Shown one piece after another: positions 4,407 through 26,827 of a stretch of DNA of 35,882 nucleotides (within the stretch, counting starts at the first letter, position 1; each line of letters begins with the position of its first letter). Position numbers and translations under genes: made by a program. Under the pieces are notes generated by a model. It was not told the origin of the DNA and ran no database searches. It saw only the letters and a list, made by a program, of their open reading frames with translations. Source of the stretch: Nocardia ninae NBRC 108245 (GTDB lineage: Bacteria > Actinomycetota > Actinomycetes > Mycobacteriales > Mycobacteriaceae); NCBI RefSeq assembly GCF_007990755.1, contig NZ_BJXA01000085.1, positions 1-35,882 of the forward strand, given 5' to 3'.

Positions 4407-6517
4407 CCGGCTGGGCACGGTTCGTCATCGCCCGGCCGCGCACGGTTCTCGCCGTGGCCGTCGGGGTGATGCTGCTGTTCGGGCTGCTCGGGATGAACAC
4501 CGCCGACAAGGTCAGCGCGGCGGGCTTCAATGACCCGCACAGCGAGTCGGCCGCGGTCGATCGGCTGGTGCGAGAGCACTTCGGCCCGCAGACGCCCGAC
4601 GCGGTCGCGCTGTACACCGCGCCCGACGGACAGACGCTCGACGACATCGGCCCTCGGGTGCAACAGTCGCTCGCCGGGATCGATCCCGCGCTGCTGCAGC
4701 GCCCGGTCGAAACCTATTGGAACAGTGTGCCGCCGCGTAAACAGTTCCTGCGCTCCGCCGACAACCGGCAGGCGCTGGCGGTGGTGTTTCTCGCGGGTGA
4801 CGACAATCGACGCGTCACCGCCTATCCCGATATCGAAGCGGCGCTGCGGGTTCCGGGTATCGACACCAAGCTCTCCGGTTACAGCGCGTTGGCGACCCAC
4901 ATCAACAGTCAGTCGCAACACGATTTGGTACGGGCTGAATCCCTCTCGTTGCCACTCACTTTGCTGATCCTGGTGCTGGTGTTCGGTGGTGTGGTCGCGG
5001 CGTCGCTGCCGGTGGTGGTCGGGGTGCTCGCGGTGCTCGGCGCGATGGGCACCATTCGGCTGCTCACCGAGTTCACCGAAGTGAGCACGTTCGCGGTGAA
5101 TATCGCGTCGCTGCTCGGTTTGGGCATGGCGATCGATTACGGGCTTTTCCTGGTGACCCGATTCCGGGAGGAGCTCGCCGGAGGGCGCGATATCGAGTCC
5201 GCCATCGAACGCACCTGCGCGACCGCCGGTCGGACCGTCGCCTTCTCGGCATTACTGCTGATCTGTGCCTTCGCAGGAACTTTCGTGTTCCCGCAGGCCG
5301 TGCTGCGGTCGCTGGGGTTCGGCGCGATCGCCGCGGTCGCGCTCGCCGCCGGTCTCTCGCTCACCGTGCTGCCCGCCATGCTCGCGCTGTTCGGTGCTCG
5401 AATCGGTAAGGCGGGCAGCAAAGATCGCACCGAGCGGTTCTGGGGGCGGGTGGTGGACGCGGTGCTGCGCAGGCCCGGCCTCGTCACCATCGTGGTCGGC
5501 GCGATACTTGTGCTGCTCGCCGTGCCGCTCACCGGCGCGAAGCTGGGTGACATCGACCATCGCGCGTTGCCCGCAGGCAATGAAATGCGCACCACCGTCG
5601 AGGAACTCACCGCCACGTTCCCTGCGGCGAGCAGCGGTGTCACGGCGGTGCTGCACGGCGTCGATGGGCCGCCGCAGTCGGCCGCGGTGGATGCCGCGAG
5701 CACGGCGCTCGGCCGGGTCGACGGTGTCCGGCAGGTGTTCCAGGTGGGCCGGGCCGATGATTTCGTCGTATTCCACGCGTTCCTCGATGCCACCGACCGC
5801 AGCGAAAACGCCTCGGCCACTGTGCAGGACATCCGTGCGTTGACTCCGCCGGACGACACGTTCCTGCGGATCGGTGGCGACACCGCCGCCACCGTCGACG
5901 GCGTGCACTCCATCGTGCGTGCCATGCCCTGGATGATTCTGGCCATGGTGAGCGCGACCGTGCTGCTGCTCGCGGCGGCGTTCCGCTCGATCATGTTGCC
6001 GCTGAAGGCCGTAGCGATGGCCTTCCTCAGCCTCGCCGCTACCTTCGGCGTGCTCACCTGGATTTTCAACGACGGCCATCTCGCGGGTGTCCTCGGTATC
6101 AGTCCGGGGCCGCTCGCCGCGGGCATGCTCGTGCTGATCATCGCGGTCGTCTTCGGTTTGTCCACCGACTACGAGGTTTTCCTGCTGTCCCGCATGGTGG
6201 AGGCGCATGCGGCGGGGGCCGATACCGCGGGATCGGTCCGCATCGGGACGCTCAAGACCGCCCGGGTCATCACGGCCGCCGCGACGCTGCTCGTTATCGT
6301 CACCGGTGCGTTCACTCTTTCTCCATTGACGCCCATGCGTTTTCTCGGACTCGGCATGATCATCGCGTTGCTGATCGATGCCACCTTGGTCCGCATGCTG
6401 CTGGTGCCCGCGTTGGTCGAACTCATGGGGCCGGCCAATTGGTGGACTCCCTTCCCGCGCCGCCGGCTCATTCCCGCCACTGTCGAACCCTCGAAAGAAA
6501 CGGCCTCGATTCGGTAA
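4403..6517 (+). CDS. MmpL-family RND lipid transporter
   Basis: 704 aa from ATG 4403, which overlaps the acyltransferase stop. The architecture is the MmpL/RND duplicate: a short N-terminal cytoplasmic piece, TM1 near 10-32, a periplasmic porter domain, a bundle of five helices, then the same again. Two conserved TM4/TM10 proton-relay motifs are visible, AIDYGLFLVTRFREE with Asp245 and STDYEVFLLSRM with Asp589. MmpL proteins flip or export lipids and lipid-linked metabolites across the inner membrane of mycolate-containing bacteria. No MmpS partner is adjacent. Co-transcription with beta-lactone and acyltransferase genes suggests the lactone-derived lipid is its cargo. Length is near that of compact MmpL proteins (700-1000 aa), so it probably lacks a long C-terminal domain. 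Confidence 0.85.
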   Translation: MTGWARFVIARPRTVLAVAVGVMLLFGLLGMNTADKVSAAGFNDPHSESAAVDRLVREHFGPQTPDAVALYTAPDGQTLDDIGPRVQQSLAGIDPALLQRPVETYWNSVPPRKQFLRSADNRQALAVVFLAGDDNRRVTAYPDIEAALRVPGIDTKLSGYSALATHINSQSQHDLVRAESLSLPLTLLILVLVFGGVVAASLPVVVGVLAVLGAMGTIRLLTEFTEVSTFAVNIASLLGLGMAIDYGLFLVTRFREELAGGRDIESAIERTCATAGRTVAFSALLLICAFAGTFVFPQAVLRSLGFGAIAAVALAAGLSLTVLPAMLALFGARIGKAGSKDRTERFWGRVVDAVLRRPGLVTIVVGAILVLLAVPLTGAKLGDIDHRALPAGNEMRTTVEELTATFPAASSGVTAVLHGVDGPPQSAAVDAASTALGRVDGVRQVFQVGRADDFVVFHAFLDATDRSENASATVQDIRALTPPDDTFLRIGGDTAATVDGVHSIVRAMPWMILAMVSATVLLLAAAFRSIMLPLKAVAMAFLSLAATFGVLTWIFNDGHLAGVLGISPGPLAAGMLVLIIAVVFGLSTDYEVFLLSRMVEAHAAGADTAGSVRIGTLKTARVITAAATLLVIVTGAFTLSPLTPMRFLGLGMIIALLIDATLVRMLLVPALVELMGPANWWTPFPRRRLIPATVEPSKETASIR

Positions 6518-18329: not shown

Positions 18330-18533
18330 ATGACACAGGGCGTCGTCAAGTGGTTCAACGCGGAGAAGGGGTTCGGCTTCATCGCGCAGGACGGCGGCGG
18401 TCCCGACGTCTTCGTCCACTACTCGGCTCTCGGCGGGTCCGGGTTCAAGTCCCTCGATGAGGGACAGCGCGTGGAGTTCGAGGTCGGCCAGGGCCAGAAG
18501 GGTCCGCAGGCCACGGACGTCCGCGCCATCTGA
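18330..18533 (+). CDS. cspA: Cold-shock protein
   Basis: 67 aa from ATG 18330, with AGAGGAG six to twelve bases upstream. The OB-fold is complete: RNP1 KGFGFI (residues about 14-19), RNP2 VFVHY (about 27-31), then [26 protein letters not shown]. It binds single-stranded RNA and DNA and melts mRNA secondary structure at low temperature. Length and sequence are near the actinobacterial CspA standard. It is a lone gene, with a structured leader before it and a hairpin terminator after it. Actinobacteria usually carry several csp copies, so the exact paralogue name is uncertain. Confidence 0.95.
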
Positions 18534-18589: not shown

Positions 18590-19102
18590 TCAGGCCAGTA
18601 GCACGGGCAGCAGGAGATCGACCGCCTCGAGGTCCAGCAGCGCGCGTTTGACAGGCAGTCCACCCGCATAGCCGGTGAGAGCGCCGTCCGCGCCGAGGAC
18701 CCGATGGCACGGAATCAGCATCAACAGTGGGTTGCGCGCCAACGCGCCGCCGACCTTGCGGGCGTCCGCGGGTCCACGGCCGAGCGCGCGAGCGAGCGCC
18801 CCGTACGTGGTCGTGTCGCCATACCGAGTGGTGCTTTCCAGAGTTTCCAGGACTTGACGGTCGAAGGCGCTCAGCGCGGACCGATCCGTGCGCACGGTGA
18901 ACTCGCGGCGGGTGCCCGCCAGATAGCCGTCGAGCTGAGCGACCGCCGTCACCACATATTCCAACGCACACGAGTTCTCGGCCGTCGGCGTGGCCGGAGC
19001 GTCGTCGGTGAAGACCACCCGGCTGACGCCCACCGAGCTGGCTTCGATCCGGACGTTGCCGAGGGGCGTGGCGTGCACTGTCCGGGCGGCTGAGATCTGC
19101 AT
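18590..19102 (-). CDS. ogt: Methylated-DNA-protein cysteine methyltransferase, copy 1
   Basis: 170 aa from ATG 19102, with AGGAG six bases upstream. The suicide methyl acceptor is Cys132 in LIPCHRVLGADG. The helix-turn-helix arginine-finger region (YGALARAL) and the ARKVGGALARNP segment are normal. It transfers O6-methyl from guanine (or O4 from thymine) in DNA to itself. It is not part of the overlapping operon upstream: a separate promoter (19135-19165) with the same signature as that of the sigma gene lies 33 bp ahead of the start. It stops 16 bp from the csp terminator. This is the shorter of two O6-alkylguanine methyltransferases in the cluster. Confidence 0.92.
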   Translation of the reverse strand: MQISAARTVHATPLGNVRIEASSVGVSRVVFTDDAPATPTAENSCALEYVVTAVAQLDGYLAGTRREFTVRTDRSALSAFDRQVLETLESTTRYGDTTTYGALARALGRGPADARKVGGALARNPLLMLIPCHRVLGADGALTGYAGGLPVKRALLDLEAVDLLLPVLLA

Positions 19103-19134
19103 GATGTGCTCCTGTTCGGCGATCTAGTCACCCA

Positions 19135-19165
19135 GTAGACGGTGGCCGAGCCCGGAACGTGAGAT
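19135..19165 (-). promoter_or_regulatory. Alkylation sigma-type promoter, copy 1 (ogt)
   Basis: On the minus strand ATCTCACGTT is followed after 14 bp by CGTCTAC; counted as TCTCAC-N17-CGTC it resembles ECF promoters with a CGTC -10. The same arrangement, also 31 bp long overall, occurs at 21248-21278 before the sigma gene. The initiation point would lie near 19128, about 26 nt before the ogt ATG. Confidence 0.75.
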
Positions 19166-19443
19166 CACTGAGATTTGTTGTCCCGCGCGACTTTCCACGC
19201 GGCGTACCGCTCCGGTAGACACACCGCACACGGCCGATAGCCCGCACTGATCGCGGTGGACTCGTCGGCGAAGAAGACCCGATGCGTGCGGTAGGCACCG
19301 CGCGCCAAGGCACGCGCGGCGGACGGGCAGTCCAGGCGACCGTAAACCCTGCCGCGCCGATGACCGCCGTACCGGCCGGGTGTTGGACTGCGGTACGGGC
19401 GGCCGTCTGCGTCGAGCAACGTGTAGTCGCTACTGGGCGTCAT
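19165..19443 (-). CDS. Ada-like zinc-domain protein without the methyl-acceptor cysteine
   Basis: 92 aa from ATG 19443, overlapping the upstream oxygenase stop by 14 bp. It consists of little more than the Ada N-terminal metal-binding domain: VYGRLDC, then RVFFADESTAISAGYRPCAVCLPERYAAWK. Aligned by eye to E. coli Ada (YCRPSC ... FRPCKRC), cysteines 39, 72 and 75 correspond to Ada C42, C69 and C72, but the position of C38, the one that accepts methyl from DNA phosphotriesters, is Gly35. His28 might complete the zinc site. So it cannot work like Ada's methyl sensor. It has no AraC domain. It may bind DNA or help the sigma system. It ends right at the second promoter. Confidence 0.82.
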   Translation of the reverse strand: MTPSSDYTLLDADGRPYRSPTPGRYGGHRRGRVYGRLDCPSAARALARGAYRTHRVFFADESTAISAGYRPCAVCLPERYAAWKVARDNKSQ

Positions 19444-20152
19444 GCAGCACGAGGCCGAGGGTGTGCCGGATACCGCCACGGATCCGGCTGACACCGTGAC
19501 GCACCGGGGCACGAGACCAGCCGCGGCTCGACGGGGTCGGCCGGTCGCGCGTGGTGAAGATCAGCCCGTGCCCCTGCTCCAACACGGTGACGGTGGCCTT
19601 GGACTGCGCCCTCGCCCGCTGCTCGACCAGCAGGAACTCACCACCGGTGTGGTCGACCCCCGGCCGGTCCAGACCGATCACCACTTGCAGCGGGAACACC
19701 AGATCACCGTAGAGGTCACGGTGCAAGGCATTCCAGTCACCTTCGGTGTAGCGCAACAGAATCGGCGTCGGCTTGCCCTGCCCGGCGGCGTGGCAGGCGT
19801 CGAGCCAGTCGGCGAAGTCGTCCGGCCACGGCGCCGGATCACCGAGCCGTTCGGCCCAGGACCGGGCCACCGGCAACAACTTTCGGTAGAACGCCGCGCG
19901 CAGCGTCATGATCGGATCGGGCACCGGATCGGCGAAGTAGCGGTAGGTGCCCTGACCGAACCGATAGCGCGCCATGTCGATGGTCGAGCGGAATCGCGCT
20001 ACGTCGTCCCACATTTCGGTGAAGTCGGCGCATTCGTCGGGCGTCAGGATCGGGCCGGTCTGGGCGCAGCCGTAGGTGTCGAGCTCATCGACCAGCGTCG
20101 GCCAGGACTGCGCGTCCACCCGATCAGCCAGGGGGGCAAGGGTTTCACTCAT
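19430..20152 (-). CDS. 2-oxoglutarate/Fe(II) oxygenase of the alkylation operon
   Basis: 240 aa from ATG 20152, overlapping the ogt stop as ATGA. The double-stranded beta-helix iron site is visible as HRD (His144, Asp146) and His219 in RHGVSRIRGG, with the 2OG-binding arginine probably in GIRHTLGL. The family uses 2-oxoglutarate and oxygen; AlkB members remove methyl groups from 1-methyladenine and 3-methylcytosine. This sequence is not close to classical AlkB: it is of the prolyl-hydroxylase-like type (FPLQVVIGLDRPGVDHTGGEFLLVEQRARAQSKA) that is commonly annotated in actinobacterial ada/ogt operons. Its place in this operon supports a role in alkylation repair, yet the substrate could also be protein or nucleotide. 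Confidence in the fold is high, in the role moderate. Confidence 0.82.
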   Translation of the reverse strand: MSETLAPLADRVDAQSWPTLVDELDTYGCAQTGPILTPDECADFTEMWDDVARFRSTIDMARYRFGQGTYRYFADPVPDPIMTLRAAFYRKLLPVARSWAERLGDPAPWPDDFADWLDACHAAGQGKPTPILLRYTEGDWNALHRDLYGDLVFPLQVVIGLDRPGVDHTGGEFLLVEQRARAQSKATVTVLEQGHGLIFTTRDRPTPSSRGWSRAPVRHGVSRIRGGIRHTLGLVLHDAQ

Positions 20153-20766
20153 GCCGCCTCCAGCGTCAGCAACGTCGTCTTCGCCTCGATGCCGCCCACG
20201 TACTGGCCGATCGATCTGTCACTGCGCACCACCCGATGGCACGGAATCACCACGGGCAGTGGGTTGTGCGCGCAGGCCGAGCCGACCGCACGAACCGCCC
20301 GGGGATTACCGACGGCGGCCGCGACGGCCGCATAGCTTTCGCGACGCCCATAGCCGATGTCGGTGAGATGCTCGATCACCTGACGGCGGAATCCACCGGT
20401 CAGTTGCAGATCGAGCGGCAGGTCGAAATGCGTTCGGGCACCGGCGAAGTACTCGTCGATCTCGCGCGCCGCGGCGTCCAGACGCGCCGGTGCGGCGAGT
20501 ACCCGCGGGCTGACCCGCTCGGCCAGCGTGGTGAGGACGGCGTCGTGGTCCTCGTTGGGGTAGGCGACACGCACCAGACCCGTGGGGGTCGCCGCGAGCA
20601 GCAGCGTGCCGACGGGCGTGTCCATGGTGCGGTAGGCGACGTCGAGCAGTCCCGCGGACTGCGCGTCCACGGCCAACCGGCGGCGCAGCTCGGCCAGCAG
20701 GGCACGGTCGGGGGTGAGGCCGTCGAACAGGCCGTCCGGGTCGCCACGGTCGATGGTGGCCATCAT
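20149..20766 (-). CDS. ogt: Methylated-DNA-protein cysteine methyltransferase, copy 2
   Basis: 205 aa from ATG 20766, which overlaps the sigma stop (ATGA); its own stop overlaps the oxygenase ATG. The acceptor is Cys176 in VVIPCHRVVRS, within YGRRESYAAVAAAVGNPRAVRAVGSACAHNPLPVV. The long N-terminal part (about 45 residues before TPVGTLLLA) is longer than in copy 1 and contains a helical, charged segment (RALLAELRRRLAVDAQ). It repairs O6-alkylguanine. Being locked between the sigma gene and the oxygenase by ATGA overlaps, it will be made in step with them. Confidence 0.93.
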   Translation of the reverse strand: MMATIDRGDPDGLFDGLTPDRALLAELRRRLAVDAQSAGLLDVAYRTMDTPVGTLLLAATPTGLVRVAYPNEDHDAVLTTLAERVSPRVLAAPARLDAAAREIDEYFAGARTHFDLPLDLQLTGGFRRQVIEHLTDIGYGRRESYAAVAAAVGNPRAVRAVGSACAHNPLPVVIPCHRVVRSDRSIGQYVGGIEAKTTLLTLEAA

Positions 20767-21242
20767 GAGTCATCCTTCGGGTAGAGCTTGCGCAGCGTTT
20801 TGAGGCCGTCGGCGGCGGCGCGGCGGGCGGCATCGGTGGAGTTGCCGAGCAGCACGGCGATCTCGGCGTGTGGCAGGCCTGCCAGGTAGTGGTAGGCGAC
20901 CGCCTGGCGTTGCTTGGGCGGCAACGCTTTCAGGGCGGCCCAGAGGTGCGGGTCATAATCGGCCGGGTCGGGGTCGGTGGCCGGGCGTTCGGGCAGTGTC
21001 TCCGCCGGCACCGGGGCGCGGGTGAGCGCCCGGCCGACGTCGATCGCGCGACGGTGCGCGATGGTGACCAACCAGGCCTCGATGTTCGCCCCCGGGTCGA
21101 GGTCGGGATACGCGCGCAGGGCGGACAGGAACGTCTCCGACCACGCGTCGGCCGCATCGGTCGGACCGAGCACCGCCCGGCAGACGCGCAGCACCATCGG
21201 GCCGTACTCGGCCACCACTTCCTCGAACGGAGGCAATCTCAC
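20763..21242 (-). CDS. ECF-type sigma factor heading the alkylation operon
   Basis: 159 aa using GTG 21242, which sits 6 bp after the putative -10, so the mRNA may be leaderless; a GTG at 21302 would reach back into recD. Region 2 runs about residues 4-70 (VAEYGPMVLRVCRAVLG ... DAWSETFLSALRAYPDLDPGANIEAWLVTIAHRRAID) and region 4 about 104-155 (LPPKQRQAVAYHYLAGLPHAEIAVLLGNSTDAARRAAADGLKTLR). There is no C-terminal extension and no anti-sigma gene next to it. The stop is overlapped by ogt. It most likely transcribes its own operon and the separate ogt gene through the shared promoter element. How it senses alkylation is unknown. Confidence 0.85.
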   Translation of the reverse strand: MRLPPFEEVVAEYGPMVLRVCRAVLGPTDAADAWSETFLSALRAYPDLDPGANIEAWLVTIAHRRAIDVGRALTRAPVPAETLPERPATDPDPADYDPHLWAALKALPPKQRQAVAYHYLAGLPHAEIAVLLGNSTDAARRAAADGLKTLRKLYPKDDS

Positions 21243-21247
21243 ACTGG

Positions 21248-21278
21248 GTAGACGTCCACGACGCCGGAAACGTGAGAT
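21248..21278 (-). promoter_or_regulatory. Alkylation sigma-type promoter, copy 2 (sigma operon)
   Basis: Minus strand: ATCTCACGTT, 14 bp, CGTCTAC, exactly the spacing of the element before ogt at 19135-19165. It lies between the recD stop (21286) and the sigma GTG (21242). The expected initiation point coincides with the GTG, giving a leaderless message. Confidence 0.78.
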
Positions 21279-21285
21279 GCGCCGG

Positions 21286-23196
21286 TCATCGGCCGTCCGC
21301 ACGGCGGGACAGCCCGCTGGCGCGCAGCACCCGGCGTGCGATACCTGCCCTGATCGACTCGTCGGTACCGATCACCCGGACGTGGCGGCGGGCGCGGGTG
21401 ATCGCCGTGTACAGCAGTTCCCGCGTCAGCAACGTCGATTCCGGCTCGGGCAGGACCACCGACACGGTGTCGTACTGGCTGCCCTGGCTGCGGTGGATGG
21501 TCATGGCGAACACGGTGACCACGGCCGGGAACTGGGTGGGATGCACGAGGTACGGCTCGCTGCCGCGTTGCAGCGCGGCGCGCAGTGAACCGTCGGGCAT
21601 CCGCACGACGACGCCGGTGTCCCCGTTGTAGATGCGGGCCTCATGGTCGTTGGCGGTGACCAGCAGCGGCTGGCCGGGATACCAGGGCGCCAGGTGCGAA
21701 TCGGGGCCCGCACCCCCGGCGGCCGCCCACTCGGCGGCCATCCGGTCCCAGCGCTCGACACCGAACGGACCCTGCCGGTGCGCGCACAGCAGACGGTGCG
21801 ATTCGAGGGCGGTGAGCGCGCCCGCGGCGTCACCGTCGAGCGCGGCCGTGGTTACCTCGCGTGCCGCGCGCACGACATCGGCTCGCACACCGGCCATCTC
21901 GTCGGGTGCGCTCAGTGACAGTTCGTCACCGCCCGCGCGGAGCAGTTCGAGCGCAGTATCGGCGTCACCGGCGCGCACCGCGACCGCGAGGTCGGCGATC
22001 CGCCCGCCGAAGCGACGGCCGCGGGTCAGCCGAACGATGCCGCCGCGCAGGCGAGTTCGCTCCAGCGTGGTCAACGCCGCCGAATTGCTGTCCGGCGCGG
22101 CCGATTCCGGTGAATCCGCGCCGAGGATCTCGTCGAGCATCGGATTCGGGGTGCCCGCAACGGGTCCCGCGACGAGGTCGGCCAGCACCGCGCCCGCGTC
22201 GACCGAGGCGAGCTGGTCCGGGTCGCCGACGAGCACCAGCCGGGTATCGGGGCGCAGCGCGGCGAACAGCCTGCTCATCATGGTGAGCGACACCATGGAG
22301 GTTTCGTCGACGACGATCACGTCGTAAGGGAGCCGGTTGAATTCGTGGTATTTGAACCGGGTGGTGCGGCCACGCTGCCAGCCGAGCAGGCGGTGCAGGG
22401 TGGCGGCGGTGAGGTCGGGCAGGCCGAGCTCGTCGGCCTGCTCGCGCACGGCCTCCTGGAGGCGCGCGGCCGCCTTGCCCGTCGGCGCGGCCAACGCGAT
22501 CCGCAGTGCGGGCAGTTTGGGATTGGCTTTGCGGTGCGCGTCGAGCAGGCCGATGATGCGCGCGATGGTGTGCGTCTTGCCGGTGCCCGGACCGCCGGCC
22601 ACCACCGTGGTCCAGTGGGTCGCGGCGAGGGCGGCGGCGAGCCGCTGGCGGTCGGGGACGCCGCCGACCGGTGCGTCGAACAGCCGATCCAGTTCGCGGC
22701 GTACGATATTCGGGTCGACCACCGGGTGGTGCCCGGACCGCTCGGTGAGCACCCGGCGAACAGTCTGCTCCTGCTGGTAGTACCGGTCCAGATAGAGCAG
22801 CGGGCCGGTGTCGTCACGGCGCTGCGACTCCACCAGCCGCAAGGGGCACAGCGGGCCTGCGGGCCCACCGGTCACCAGCGGGCTGACCCGCAGCGCGGCC
22901 ACCACCGCGTCGATATCGGGCCACGGCAGCGTCGCCGGATCGATGCGCTCGCCGGTGTCCCAGGTCTCGTCGGCGTCGATGCCGATCTCGCGCATCCGGT
23001 GCAGCTCCAGGCACACCGAACCGGAGCGCACCGCACGCACTGCCAGCGCCGCCGCGAACAGCACCGCCTCGGTGTCCTCCCGCCCCAACCGCCCCAGGCG
23101 AACCGCGACATGCACGTCCGCGGCCGACAGCACCCCCGCCTCGTTGAACGTCCGCAGCAACCCGGTCCCCCGCTGCGCCAACTGAATCGAGGTCAC
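21286..23196 (-). CDS. recD: Exonuclease V alpha subunit (RecD helicase)
   Basis: 636 aa from GTG 23196, with AGGTGG seven or more bases upstream; a TTG one codon earlier is the alternative. It is an SF1B 5'-3' helicase: Walker A GGPGTGKTHT near 202-211, Walker B VIVVDETSM, motif III LVLVGDPDQLASV, and the C-terminal motifs VFAMTIHRSQGSQYD and LYTAITRARRHV. RecD is the fast 5'-3' motor of RecBCD. An N-terminal domain of about 160 residues, needed for RecC contact, is present. It follows recB by 73 bp on the same strand. Its stop lies only 8 bp from the sigma promoter, so read-through into the alkylation genes is possible. Confidence 0.95.
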   Translation of the reverse strand: MTSIQLAQRGTGLLRTFNEAGVLSAADVHVAVRLGRLGREDTEAVLFAAALAVRAVRSGSVCLELHRMREIGIDADETWDTGERIDPATLPWPDIDAVVAALRVSPLVTGGPAGPLCPLRLVESQRRDDTGPLLYLDRYYQQEQTVRRVLTERSGHHPVVDPNIVRRELDRLFDAPVGGVPDRQRLAAALAATHWTTVVAGGPGTGKTHTIARIIGLLDAHRKANPKLPALRIALAAPTGKAAARLQEAVREQADELGLPDLTAATLHRLLGWQRGRTTRFKYHEFNRLPYDVIVVDETSMVSLTMMSRLFAALRPDTRLVLVGDPDQLASVDAGAVLADLVAGPVAGTPNPMLDEILGADSPESAAPDSNSAALTTLERTRLRGGIVRLTRGRRFGGRIADLAVAVRAGDADTALELLRAGGDELSLSAPDEMAGVRADVVRAAREVTTAALDGDAAGALTALESHRLLCAHRQGPFGVERWDRMAAEWAAAGGAGPDSHLAPWYPGQPLLVTANDHEARIYNGDTGVVVRMPDGSLRAALQRGSEPYLVHPTQFPAVVTVFAMTIHRSQGSQYDTVSVVLPEPESTLLTRELLYTAITRARRHVRVIGTDESIRAGIARRVLRASGLSRRADGR

Positions 23197-23269
23197 CAAC
23201 CCACCTTCCGGGCCGAGCCGCTGCTCGGCCGGTAGTCGCGCCGCGCGGGCGCGGGCCTGCAGGCGACGG

Positions 23270-26200
23270 TCATCGGGTGACCTCGCCGGCCAGCAGGCGC
23301 GACAGCGCGATGATGAGAGCAGCGGGCGGATTCCAGTCGAAAACGCCGTAACCGTTCGGGGTTTCGGGGCCGACCATGCCGCGGACGAACAGGTAGCGGG
23401 CGCCCCCGAGGTGCCGGGCGGGGTCGTAGCCGGGCAGCCGCCAGCGCAGGTAGCGGTGCAACGCGACCGCGTACAGCAGAGCCTGCAGCGGGTAATGCGA
23501 GCGCATCATCTCAGCGGCCATCCGGTCGCGCGTGTAGTGCTCGACGGTGAGGTCGCCGGTGCCGAGGCGGTTGGTCTTGTAGTCGACGATCACGAATCTG
23601 GTGTCCGCGCCGTCGGTTACCCGCAGCACAGCGTCGATACTGCCGGTCAGGTAGCCGCGCAACGGAATGTCGTCCAGGGTCGCCAGGTGGTCGGCGTAGA
23701 CGAAAAGGTCGTCGCCGGAGGGCAAGTGGGTGCGCAGCAAGTCCGCGATCTGCCGCAGCGTCGCCGATTCGGCGCGCGGCACGTCGCCACCCGCCAGCGG
23801 CAGCTCGAACTCCAACTCGTTCAAGCGATCTCGGCTGGAGATGTCGGCGAGCGAGCCGATACCGAGCGGCGTGCGCAGCACAGCAAGTAGGGCGGTGCTG
23901 AGCACTTCCGGATCGGCTTCGGCCATGAGTTCGTCGACCGCCGCGCGGCAACGCTTGTCCACCTCGGCGGCCAGATCCGGTGCGTCCGTGTCGATCAACT
24001 CGAGCACGCCATGCACCAGAGTGCCGAACTCGGCGCCGTAGGGCAGCGAGTTCATCAGCGACGGCGCGCCTGCGAATACCTCTTCGACCTCGGCGACCAT
24101 CGGGGCGCTCGGCTCGTCGGCCGGCCCACGGGTGTCCTCGGGTTCGATCTCCAGCTCGGGCGTGACCGGGCCGTGCGCGGAGGCGGTCAACGCCGAGTAG
24201 GAGGTGCGCCGCCACAGTTGGTCCAGCTTGCGGTCGAAGCGGGCGGCGGCGAGATCGCCGGTGACCGGTTCGGTGCGCACGCGCTGGATCGCGACATCGT
24301 CCGTTCCGGCGACGGCCGTCACCGAGATGGCTTGCGCCGCGCCCCCGGCCCACGCCGAAAGCATGCTCGGCGCAACGGCATCCGCGGGCACGGCGGCCCG
24401 CGGCGGTACGGTGTCGCCGCCGTCCGGGCGACCAAGGATCATCCGATGCAGCGGCGAGGCCGCGGTGGTGATCGCGGGCGCCCACCACGCGACGACCTGG
24501 CACATGGCCCGGGTCAGCGCGACGTAGAGCAGGCGCAGTTCCTCGCCGGCCTCCTCGGTCTCGCTGCGCAGCTTGCGTTCGGCGTATCCCGACGCGTCCG
24601 GGCCGCCGACGTCGAGCACGCGCATGTCGTTGTCGTCGTGGAACAGCAGCGTCGCCGGATACGGGTTCTTCGCGTTGTCCCAGGCGAACGGCAAGTACAC
24701 GATGGGGAATTCGAGCCCCTTGCTGGCGTGCACGGTGGCGATCTGCACGGCCGCGGCATCGCGGTCGAGCCTGCGGCTGCGGTCGGCGACGGTGCCCGAC
24801 GCGGGATCACGCACCCGATCAGCCAGCCAGCGGGTCAACGCGGTCAGCCCGAGGGACTCGGTGAGTGCCACTTGATCGAGCAGTTGCGCGATGTGCCGCA
24901 GATCGGTCAGCTGCCGCTCCCCGTTCTCGACGGCGAGCAGCCGCTGCGCCAAATCGGCTTCGGCGGAGATCTTTTCGAATACCGCGGCGAACCCGGCGCG
25001 GGCGAACAGCCGGGCGGCATCGCGCAGCTGGGAGCTGACCCGGCCGACCAGATCTGCACCGCCGCTATCGATCTCGGCGGCGGTGACACCGATCAATGGT
25101 GTGCACGCCGCCAGCCGCACCCGGTCACCGCGATGCGGCTGCTCCAGTGCGCGCAGCAGCCACAGCCAGTCGGTGGCACTGCTGGTCGCGAACACACTGG
25201 TACCGCCCGCGAGCACGGAGGCGACACCGACCCGGTCCAAAGCCGCACGCACGACGTCGATTTGGGAACGCGTCCGCACCAGCACAGCGATATCGCCGGG
25301 GCTGATCGGCCGACGCACTACAGCGCCAGGGGAACCGTCGGCACCCGGTTGTCCGGCATCACCCGAAGGACCCGTTCTGCCGGTCGAATGGTCGGCTTCC
25401 CGACTCGACGGATCGACAATCGGCCCACCCAACGTGGCAGCCACCCCGGCATGCGGCCCCGCCACCACCGGCTCCTGACCGGCGTGCCGTGCCGAAGTGG
25501 CCAACGAGGTACCCGACTCGAGCAGCCGGACAATATCGGCGGCCAGATCGTCGGCGACCTTCGCGCGCATCCGACCCACCGCCGGGAACCCGGACTTGTT
25601 CAGCGGCCCCGCACCAGTGCGCGGCAAGCACCGCATCCGCATCGGCGTGACCAAATCTTCCGGCCCCGACAGTCGCGACCACGGCCGAGTGGCGGCCACC
25701 GGATACACGGTGATCTCCTTGTGCCCCAACGCCGCACCACCTTGCAGATGGTCCAGCGCGGCCAGCAGCCCGGCGTCACTGCGCCAGTTGGTGGTGAGCT
25801 CCTTGCGGGTGTCCGCGTGCCCGACCGCATCCAGATAGCTGAGTACCTCGGCACCGCGGAAGGCGTAGATGGCCTGCTTCGGATCACCGACCAGCACCAG
25901 CGTGGTGTGCCCATGGAACGAGCGGCGCAAGATGTCCCATTGCAGCGGATCGGTGTCCTGGAATTCATCGACCAGCGCGACCCGATAGCGCTCGCGAATA
26001 CGGCGGCATGCGCGCGGCCCGTGCTCGGTGTCGGCGAGCACATCGTGCAACAGCACCAGCAGGTCGTCGAAGTCGCGCAGCCCGGCCAGCCGTTTCCGGC
26101 GTTCGGTTTCCGCGCGGACCGCCGCCGCGAAGGCCACCCGCTCCCCCGCCGCGCCGTCGCCCTTCGGCATCAGCACCGCGTGCCGGTCGCGCACGGCGGC

Positions 26201-26827
26201 CAGCGCCAGCGTGTGCGCCTCCTTCACCGAGAACGGCGGTTCGGTGCGGGCGTAGCGGTTCAGATAGAGGTCGTCGGCGACCGTGCCGACCAGTTCGTCG
26301 ACGTTCTCGACCAGCCGCGAACCGGGATCGTGCTCGCCGGCCAGCCCGAGCTCGTCCAGCATCCGCTGGCAGAAGCTGTGCGTGGTGGCGATGGTGCCCG
26401 CGTCGAAATCCGAGAGGGCGGCGAGCAATCGGGCCCGCCGACGCCGTACCTCGTCCGAGTCCGCCTGCGCGAGATGCCGAATCAGCTCGTCGGCGTGCGC
26501 ACGCGCCAGTTCGGGATCCGCCAGACCCGCCGCGACGACCACGAACCGATCCCGCGTACGTTCCCGCAACTCCTGGGTGGCCGCACGGCTGAACGTCACC
26601 AGCAGCAACTGCGAGACATCGATCCCGGCCTCGGCCACGTACCGCACCGCCAGCCCGACGATCGCGTGCGTCTTACCGGTTCCCGCGCTGGCCTCCAGCA
26701 CGGTCGTCCCGGTGGGCAGCGGTCCGTACGGCTCGAAACTGTCGGGCGCGTCCATCTCGGGCACCACGAACGAGGTGTCTTGCACGGTCACGCGAACACC
26801 CGCCTTTCGACCCGCCGAAACCGCCAT
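23270..26827 (-). CDS. recB: Exonuclease V beta subunit (RecB helicase-nuclease)
   Basis: 1185 aa from ATG 26827; GTG 26791 (VTVQDTS) or ATG 26755 are possible later starts, since no clear Shine-Dalgarno marks the first. The SF1A helicase part begins with EASAGTGKTHAI (Walker A, K52), with VALVDEFQDTDPLQW as motif II and HASKGLEFPIVYLPF as motif V. The C-terminal nuclease has VDYKTN with Asp1082 and Lys1084, so both helicase and nuclease appear active. A low-complexity G/A/S/P-rich stretch near residues 430-503, just before the DIAVLVRT motif, is longer than I expect for RecB. The gene follows recC by 67 bp. Role: double-strand break resection with RecC and RecD. Confidence 0.95.
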   Translation of the reverse strand: MAVSAGRKAGVRVTVQDTSFVVPEMDAPDSFEPYGPLPTGTTVLEASAGTGKTHAIVGLAVRYVAEAGIDVSQLLLVTFSRAATQELRERTRDRFVVVAAGLADPELARAHADELIRHLAQADSDEVRRRRARLLAALSDFDAGTIATTHSFCQRMLDELGLAGEHDPGSRLVENVDELVGTVADDLYLNRYARTEPPFSVKEAHTLALAAVRDRHAVLMPKGDGAAGERVAFAAAVRAETERRKRLAGLRDFDDLLVLLHDVLADTEHGPRACRRIRERYRVALVDEFQDTDPLQWDILRRSFHGHTTLVLVGDPKQAIYAFRGAEVLSYLDAVGHADTRKELTTNWRSDAGLLAALDHLQGGAALGHKEITVYPVAATRPWSRLSGPEDLVTPMRMRCLPRTGAGPLNKSGFPAVGRMRAKVADDLAADIVRLLESGTSLATSARHAGQEPVVAGPHAGVAATLGGPIVDPSSREADHSTGRTGPSGDAGQPGADGSPGAVVRRPISPGDIAVLVRTRSQIDVVRAALDRVGVASVLAGGTSVFATSSATDWLWLLRALEQPHRGDRVRLAACTPLIGVTAAEIDSGGADLVGRVSSQLRDAARLFARAGFAAVFEKISAEADLAQRLLAVENGERQLTDLRHIAQLLDQVALTESLGLTALTRWLADRVRDPASGTVADRSRRLDRDAAAVQIATVHASKGLEFPIVYLPFAWDNAKNPYPATLLFHDDNDMRVLDVGGPDASGYAERKLRSETEEAGEELRLLYVALTRAMCQVVAWWAPAITTAASPLHRMILGRPDGGDTVPPRAAVPADAVAPSMLSAWAGGAAQAISVTAVAGTDDVAIQRVRTEPVTGDLAAARFDRKLDQLWRRTSYSALTASAHGPVTPELEIEPEDTRGPADEPSAPMVAEVEEVFAGAPSLMNSLPYGAEFGTLVHGVLELIDTDAPDLAAEVDKRCRAAVDELMAEADPEVLSTALLAVLRTPLGIGSLADISSRDRLNELEFELPLAGGDVPRAESATLRQIADLLRTHLPSGDDLFVYADHLATLDDIPLRGYLTGSIDAVLRVTDGADTRFVIVDYKTNRLGTGDLTVEHYTRDRMAAEMMRSHYPLQALLYAVALHRYLRWRLPGYDPARHLGGARYLFVRGMVGPETPNGYGVFDWNPPAALIIALSRLLAGEVTR

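Follow-up and report, generated by a model that had tools for sequence, protein, structure and literature searches.

Most of what is known about how bacteria sense alkylated DNA comes from Ada. In the window, the whole stretch of 35,882 nucleotides from Nocardia ninae NBRC 108245 that was analysed, a gene for an ECF-type sigma factor stands at the head of a run of alkylation-repair genes, which raises the question of how these genes are switched on and which protein senses the damage. The locus suggests that Actinomycetota have an alkylation response run by a sigma factor, whose promoter is defined, whose regulon is small and for which one sensor candidate stands out. Its features are:

20763..21242, minus strand: ECF sigma factor of 159 aa with regions 2 and 4 (PF04542, E 5e-13; PF08281, E 6e-11)
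20149..20766, minus strand: ogt1, an O6-alkylguanine-DNA alkyltransferase with an extra N-terminal helix (PF02870 and PF01035; PCHR active site, Cys176)
19430..20152, minus strand: 2OG-Fe(II) oxygenase of family PF09859 (Oxygenase-NA; E 1e-78)
19165..19443, minus strand: small Ada-like zinc protein of 92 aa (PF02805, a weak match of 30 bits; three cysteines)
18590..19102, minus strand: ogt2, another alkyltransferase, which lacks the N-terminal helix region (PF01035; 104 bits, alignment from profile position 27)
21248..21277, minus strand: predicted ECF-type promoter of the sigma operon, an exact match to TCTCAC-N17-CGTCTAC that ends 5 nt before the sigma GTG
19135..19164, minus strand: predicted ogt2 promoter, a match to the motif of the sigma promoter

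The order of the five genes given by the sequence-only reading was confirmed by their Pfam domains, and the coordinates return the same stop/start overlaps of 4, 4 and 14 nt along sigma, ogt1, oxygenase and zinc protein. The sigma protein also scores above cut-off for TIGR02937; being short, with region 2 and region 4 domains and without region 3, it belongs to the ECF (group 4) sigma factors. Its nearest solved chains were SigH and SigE, and it is 98% identical to its counterpart in N. suismassiliense. The sigma start had been placed at 21278, where the codon is ATC; the most likely start is the GTG at 21242, because the promoter-like site fills positions 21248-21277. Just upstream of the operon, on the same strand, lie recD-like and recB-like genes (window 21286-26827; named by eye), from which read-through into sigma is possible.

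The leaderless GTG of sigma begins 5 nt past TCTCAC-N17-CGTCTAC. Exact copies of CTCACGTT-N14-CGTCTAC number two in the 9.7 Mb genome, one before sigma and one before ogt2, and the separate ogt2 promoter proposed earlier is confirmed to the extent that its motif agrees with that of the sigma promoter. For comparison we used 80 actinobacterial loci, the best 80 of 190 by sigma similarity, with a strict site (CTCAC-N17-CGTCTWC) and a relaxed one (CTCAC-N17-CG[TA][CT]). In 62 of the 80 loci the stretch of about 110 nt ahead of sigma contains the strict site, 75 have it within 1 kb, and the relaxed site is found within 1 kb upstream in all 80; the reversed relaxed pattern, used as a control, occurs at 0.001 per 130 nt. 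Of the 67 loci with a near relaxed site, 61 have an in-frame GTG at exactly 5 nt beyond it. In the window and the 80 loci taken together (857 kb), CTCAC-N17-CGTC[TA][AT]C gave 92 matches against 0 for its reverse and was present in 76 of the 81 sources. A scripted count found the relaxed form in 26 of 30 further loci from a phylum-wide search, often with CGTT replacing CGTC, and the site is also present in L204, which the script had anchored wrongly. The ogt2 promoter motif was present in all nine Nocardia loci that have ogt2 downstream. These counts across loci are not independent, because the loci share ancestry. Gene order and promoter site recur over many families, beyond chance. Where the site lies farther upstream (within 1 kb), ogt often precedes sigma.

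Sigma is present in 61 of 396 genomes of the phylum Actinomycetota and in 19 of 59 from the genus Nocardia. In 118 unselected genomes of the class the bare promoter pattern stays near noise (97 matches against 73 in the control, summed), and by these counts it is informative only in sigma-positive genomes. The 59 Nocardia genomes gave 59 matches against 3 in the control. When the pattern was limited to sites with R-T after CTCAC, a restriction picked after the sites had been seen, with sites counted from match rows, 28 sites were found in the sigma-positive Nocardia genomes (18 of 19 have them, G052 being the one without) and 0 in the 40 sigma-negative ones. In 23 named sigma-positive genomes the R-T pattern gave 33 matches against 1 in the control, 23 of them at the sigma locus and 10 elsewhere: two before PF09859 genes, two before other small genes and six at no gene start. 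Those six, in L184, L197, L200, L201, L202 and L242, were taken as chance matches.

In the genome of N. ninae itself, TCTCAC-N17-CGTCTWC has four matches and 0 in the control: at sigma, at ogt2, at an Rv2175c-like gene and on contig C69. Further sites with two mismatches to CTCACGTT-N14-CGTCTAC (11, against 9 control matches) were dropped. On C69 the site is followed, after 5 nt, by the GTG of a gene of 199 aa (L102:246-845), here called gene X, for which the Pfam scan gave no family above cut-off, the sole match being Peripla_BP_6 below it. Over 163 aa, gene X shares 39% identity with the gene after the zinc protein in Nocardia G006, and its homologues adjoin the zinc or oxygenase gene in loci of Rhizohabitans, Planotetraspora, Microtetraspora, Sinosporangium and Amycolatopsis; it is likely to encode a new alkylation-response protein. 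The site on contig C29 (L101:1501-1530, TCTCAC-N17-CGTCTAC), at the Rv2175c-like gene, was rejected as a target: it recurs in Nocardia genomes where sigma was not detected (G003, G013, G014, G028, G029, G030, G043 and G050) and probably serves another factor.

Repair genes away from the sigma locus carry the site in other genomes as well. In Mycolicibacterium sp. S2-37 no oxygenase was found beside sigma, and the site stands 5 nt ahead of the ATG of a PF09859 gene that is not linked to sigma. In two Rhodococcus, unlinked oxygenase-zinc units are preceded by the site at the 5-nt distance, with a departure of one base in one of them. In G006 the site lies roughly 130 nt ahead of alkB (PF13532), which is followed by tag (PF03352); in Nocardiopsis alkB comes directly after ogt1. 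The proposal that a dedicated sigma heads an alkylation-repair regulon is thus upheld by the conserved autoregulatory site and by its presence in front of units away from the sigma locus (oxygenase, alkB-tag and gene X). On this comparative evidence, the operon of alkylation-repair genes to which sigma belongs is very probably switched on by sigma itself. A SnoaL-like gene of M. frederiksbergense (L178:1073-1495) begins 5 nt after a site and is a possible further target, and an 89-aa gene without a Pfam match in L187, again starting 5 nt after a site, is another candidate. G006 holds two copies of the sigma-ogt operon, together with a degenerate third that yielded no sigma (L134, L135 and L136); L134 also has a third promoter-type site at 5792 on the plus strand.

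How does this system relate to Ada? The statement that no AraC-type Ada activator is present holds for the operon and fails for the genome: on contig C118 a frame of 548 residues (L233:2886-4529) joins Ada_Zn_binding, an AraC-type HTH, AlkA_N and a sub-cut-off HhH-GPD match, and another ogt follows it, so that the fusion and this ogt make up a second, Ada-type alkylation system. The suggestion that sigma takes the place of methylated Ada is not supported; since the Ada-AraC-AlkA fusion exists in the same genome, sigma works beside Ada and not as its replacement. A zinc domain of strong Ada type (> 95 bits) was found in 18 of the 23 sigma-positive genomes, so that in most cases the sigma system and Ada operate side by side; of the other five, G180 and G187 have the weak type only and G181, G182 and G191 have none.

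Ada senses through its N-terminal zinc domain, which has four zinc-binding cysteines. The zinc protein of the operon has three, against four in the C118 Ada protein, the missing one being one of the first two, and its 92 residues include no HTH and thus no fused AraC-type activator. Common to the sigma operon and the Ada adaptive response (Ada, AdaA-AlkA, AdaB) are alkyltransferases, an Ada-like zinc domain, 2OG oxygenases and a suicide alkyl acceptor as possible sensor; the sigma operon differs in that its switch would be a sigma factor and that no AraC-type activator is part of it.

The lack of an anti-sigma gene at the locus, noted earlier, was borne out in 15 genera: within about 5 kb only the sigma and Ogt families are common to all of them, and no conserved anti-sigma neighbour was found. 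Directly after sigma comes ogt1, in 79 of the 80 loci and in 29 of the 30 further phylum-wide loci, the exception in each set being a locus cut by a contig end; a scripted count gave a 4-nt stop/start overlap in 75 of the 79. In Nocardia, 21 Ogt1-type genes occur in exactly the 19 genomes that hold 21 sigma copies and in none of the 40 others. By comparison, then, the pairing is obligate. Ogt1 resembles an anti-sigma factor in being encoded beside sigma and coupled to it. The sensor question narrows to Ogt1, because many sigma loci lack the zinc protein and ogt2 whereas Ogt1 is absent only at contig ends, and we consider Ogt1 the best candidate for the damage sensor. Its MGMT fold is present, its active site (P175, C176, H177, R178) is invariant in 67 alignment rows, and its model has a helix at residues 21-37 that is extra to the normal Ogt fold. 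Compared with the OGT of Mycobacterium tuberculosis (4wx9, 4bhb), Ogt1 has about 40 more N-terminal residues, which include this helix; the VIA-align rows barely reach residues 1-39, and the novelty of the helix is not proven by them.

The link between sigma and ogt is not new, being already in print as ECF122. In its description of this group, a 2022 review (PMC8999054) gives a conserved 6-O-methylguanine DNA methyltransferase neighbour, no anti-sigma factor and an unknown mechanism. Set against that description, our locus is alike in having an ECF sigma without an anti-sigma neighbour and, in nearly all of the loci counted above, an adjoining methyltransferase. The differences lie in the further members, namely an oxygenase, a zinc protein, a second ogt and gene X, and in the promoter and regulon that we propose; the published ECF classification may already give an ECF122 promoter motif. 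Among the papers listed by our literature search on sigma with Ogt or alkylation, only this review was on point, and none of the other papers searched names ECF122; we claim no absence from print.

We propose that an ECF sigma under its own control and its partner Ogt1 together form a switch for the repair of alkylated DNA, an explanation which, taken whole, is plausible and falls a little short of an even chance. Sigma would drive the TCTCAC-N17-CGTCTAC promoters of its own operon, of ogt2 and of a few unlinked repair genes, a step that is well supported by comparison and close to certain. The regulon would mainly repair alkylation damage, through ogt, the PF09859 oxygenase and the Ada-like zinc protein and, elsewhere, alkB and tag; its gene content makes this highly probable. 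Ogt1, made from the overlapping next start codon, would bind sigma via the extra N-terminal helix and keep it idle, which we infer with the chances evenly balanced. Irreversible transfer of an alkyl group from DNA onto Cys176 would alter Ogt1 so that it frees sigma, and the response would end as fresh Ogt1 repairs the DNA and recaptures sigma; this release is the most tentative of the steps. A suicide repair enzyme would then act as anti-sigma, holding sigma until a one-time alkylation of Cys176 lets it go, a possibility that we hold just as tentatively. ECF sigma/anti-sigma pairs such as that of M. tuberculosis SigH (5zx2) are alike in regions 2 and 4 and in translational coupling of the partner, whereas the partner here is a DNA-repair enzyme and not a known anti-sigma domain. 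The model of sigma has low confidence in its domain arrangement (pTM 0.46).

The obligate pairing would also fit a repair enzyme that is merely co-expressed with sigma, and helix 21-37 may only pack on the Ogt. Sigma would then still drive the regulon and would itself be set by transcription, by proteolysis or by read-through out of the recD-like gene, which lies 44 nt upstream; positive autoregulation would amplify its activity. With sigma expressed from its own promoter, a small trigger would suffice, and transcription, conformation, proteolysis and phosphorylation are among the controls that the review lists for sigmas without an anti-sigma factor (PMC8999054). Yet it is Ogt that the 15 genera have in common, not the upstream genes, and an Ogt subtype restricted to sigma-positive genomes demands more than co-expression, so we regard this reading as a serious but lesser possibility. 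That the genes are mere neighbours outside the control of sigma is scarcely credible, given a site that is common to linked and unlinked repair units and tied to sigma-positive genomes.

The pairing data would also suit an alkylated Ogt1 that, like methylated Ada, helps sigma or its polymerase to start transcription. Contact between an alkyltransferase and a sigma subunit has a precedent in E. coli Ada, which is reported to touch the sigma subunit of polymerase in the title of a paper that PMC4437013 cites and in a passage of PMC4437013. Ogt1 as an activator is nonetheless unlikely, as it has no DNA-binding domain besides that of an Ogt. Moreover, sigma first and then a partner, coupled here by 4 nt, is the usual layout for a sigma and its inhibitor. 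Sensing by the Ada-like zinc protein or by Ogt2 would agree with the role of the zinc domain in Ada and with the sigma promoter that both genes carry or follow, but neither gene is beside sigma in many loci, for example mycobacterial ones, and the zinc protein is one cysteine short of Ada, which makes this very improbable. Should Ogt1 indeed hold and release sigma, every repaired lesion would free one molecule of a dedicated alkylation sigma, and Actinomycetota would widely possess, mostly alongside Ada, a second means of detecting DNA alkylation that does not depend on AraC. The control of ECF122-type sigmas becomes directly testable.

Two further observations concern the alkyltransferase genes. 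A cold-shock protein gene (PF00313; window 18330-18533) lies convergent to ogt2. On contig C11 of the same genome, an alkyltransferase-like protein with a PF01035 match (L005:871-1773) has PWHR replacing PCHR.
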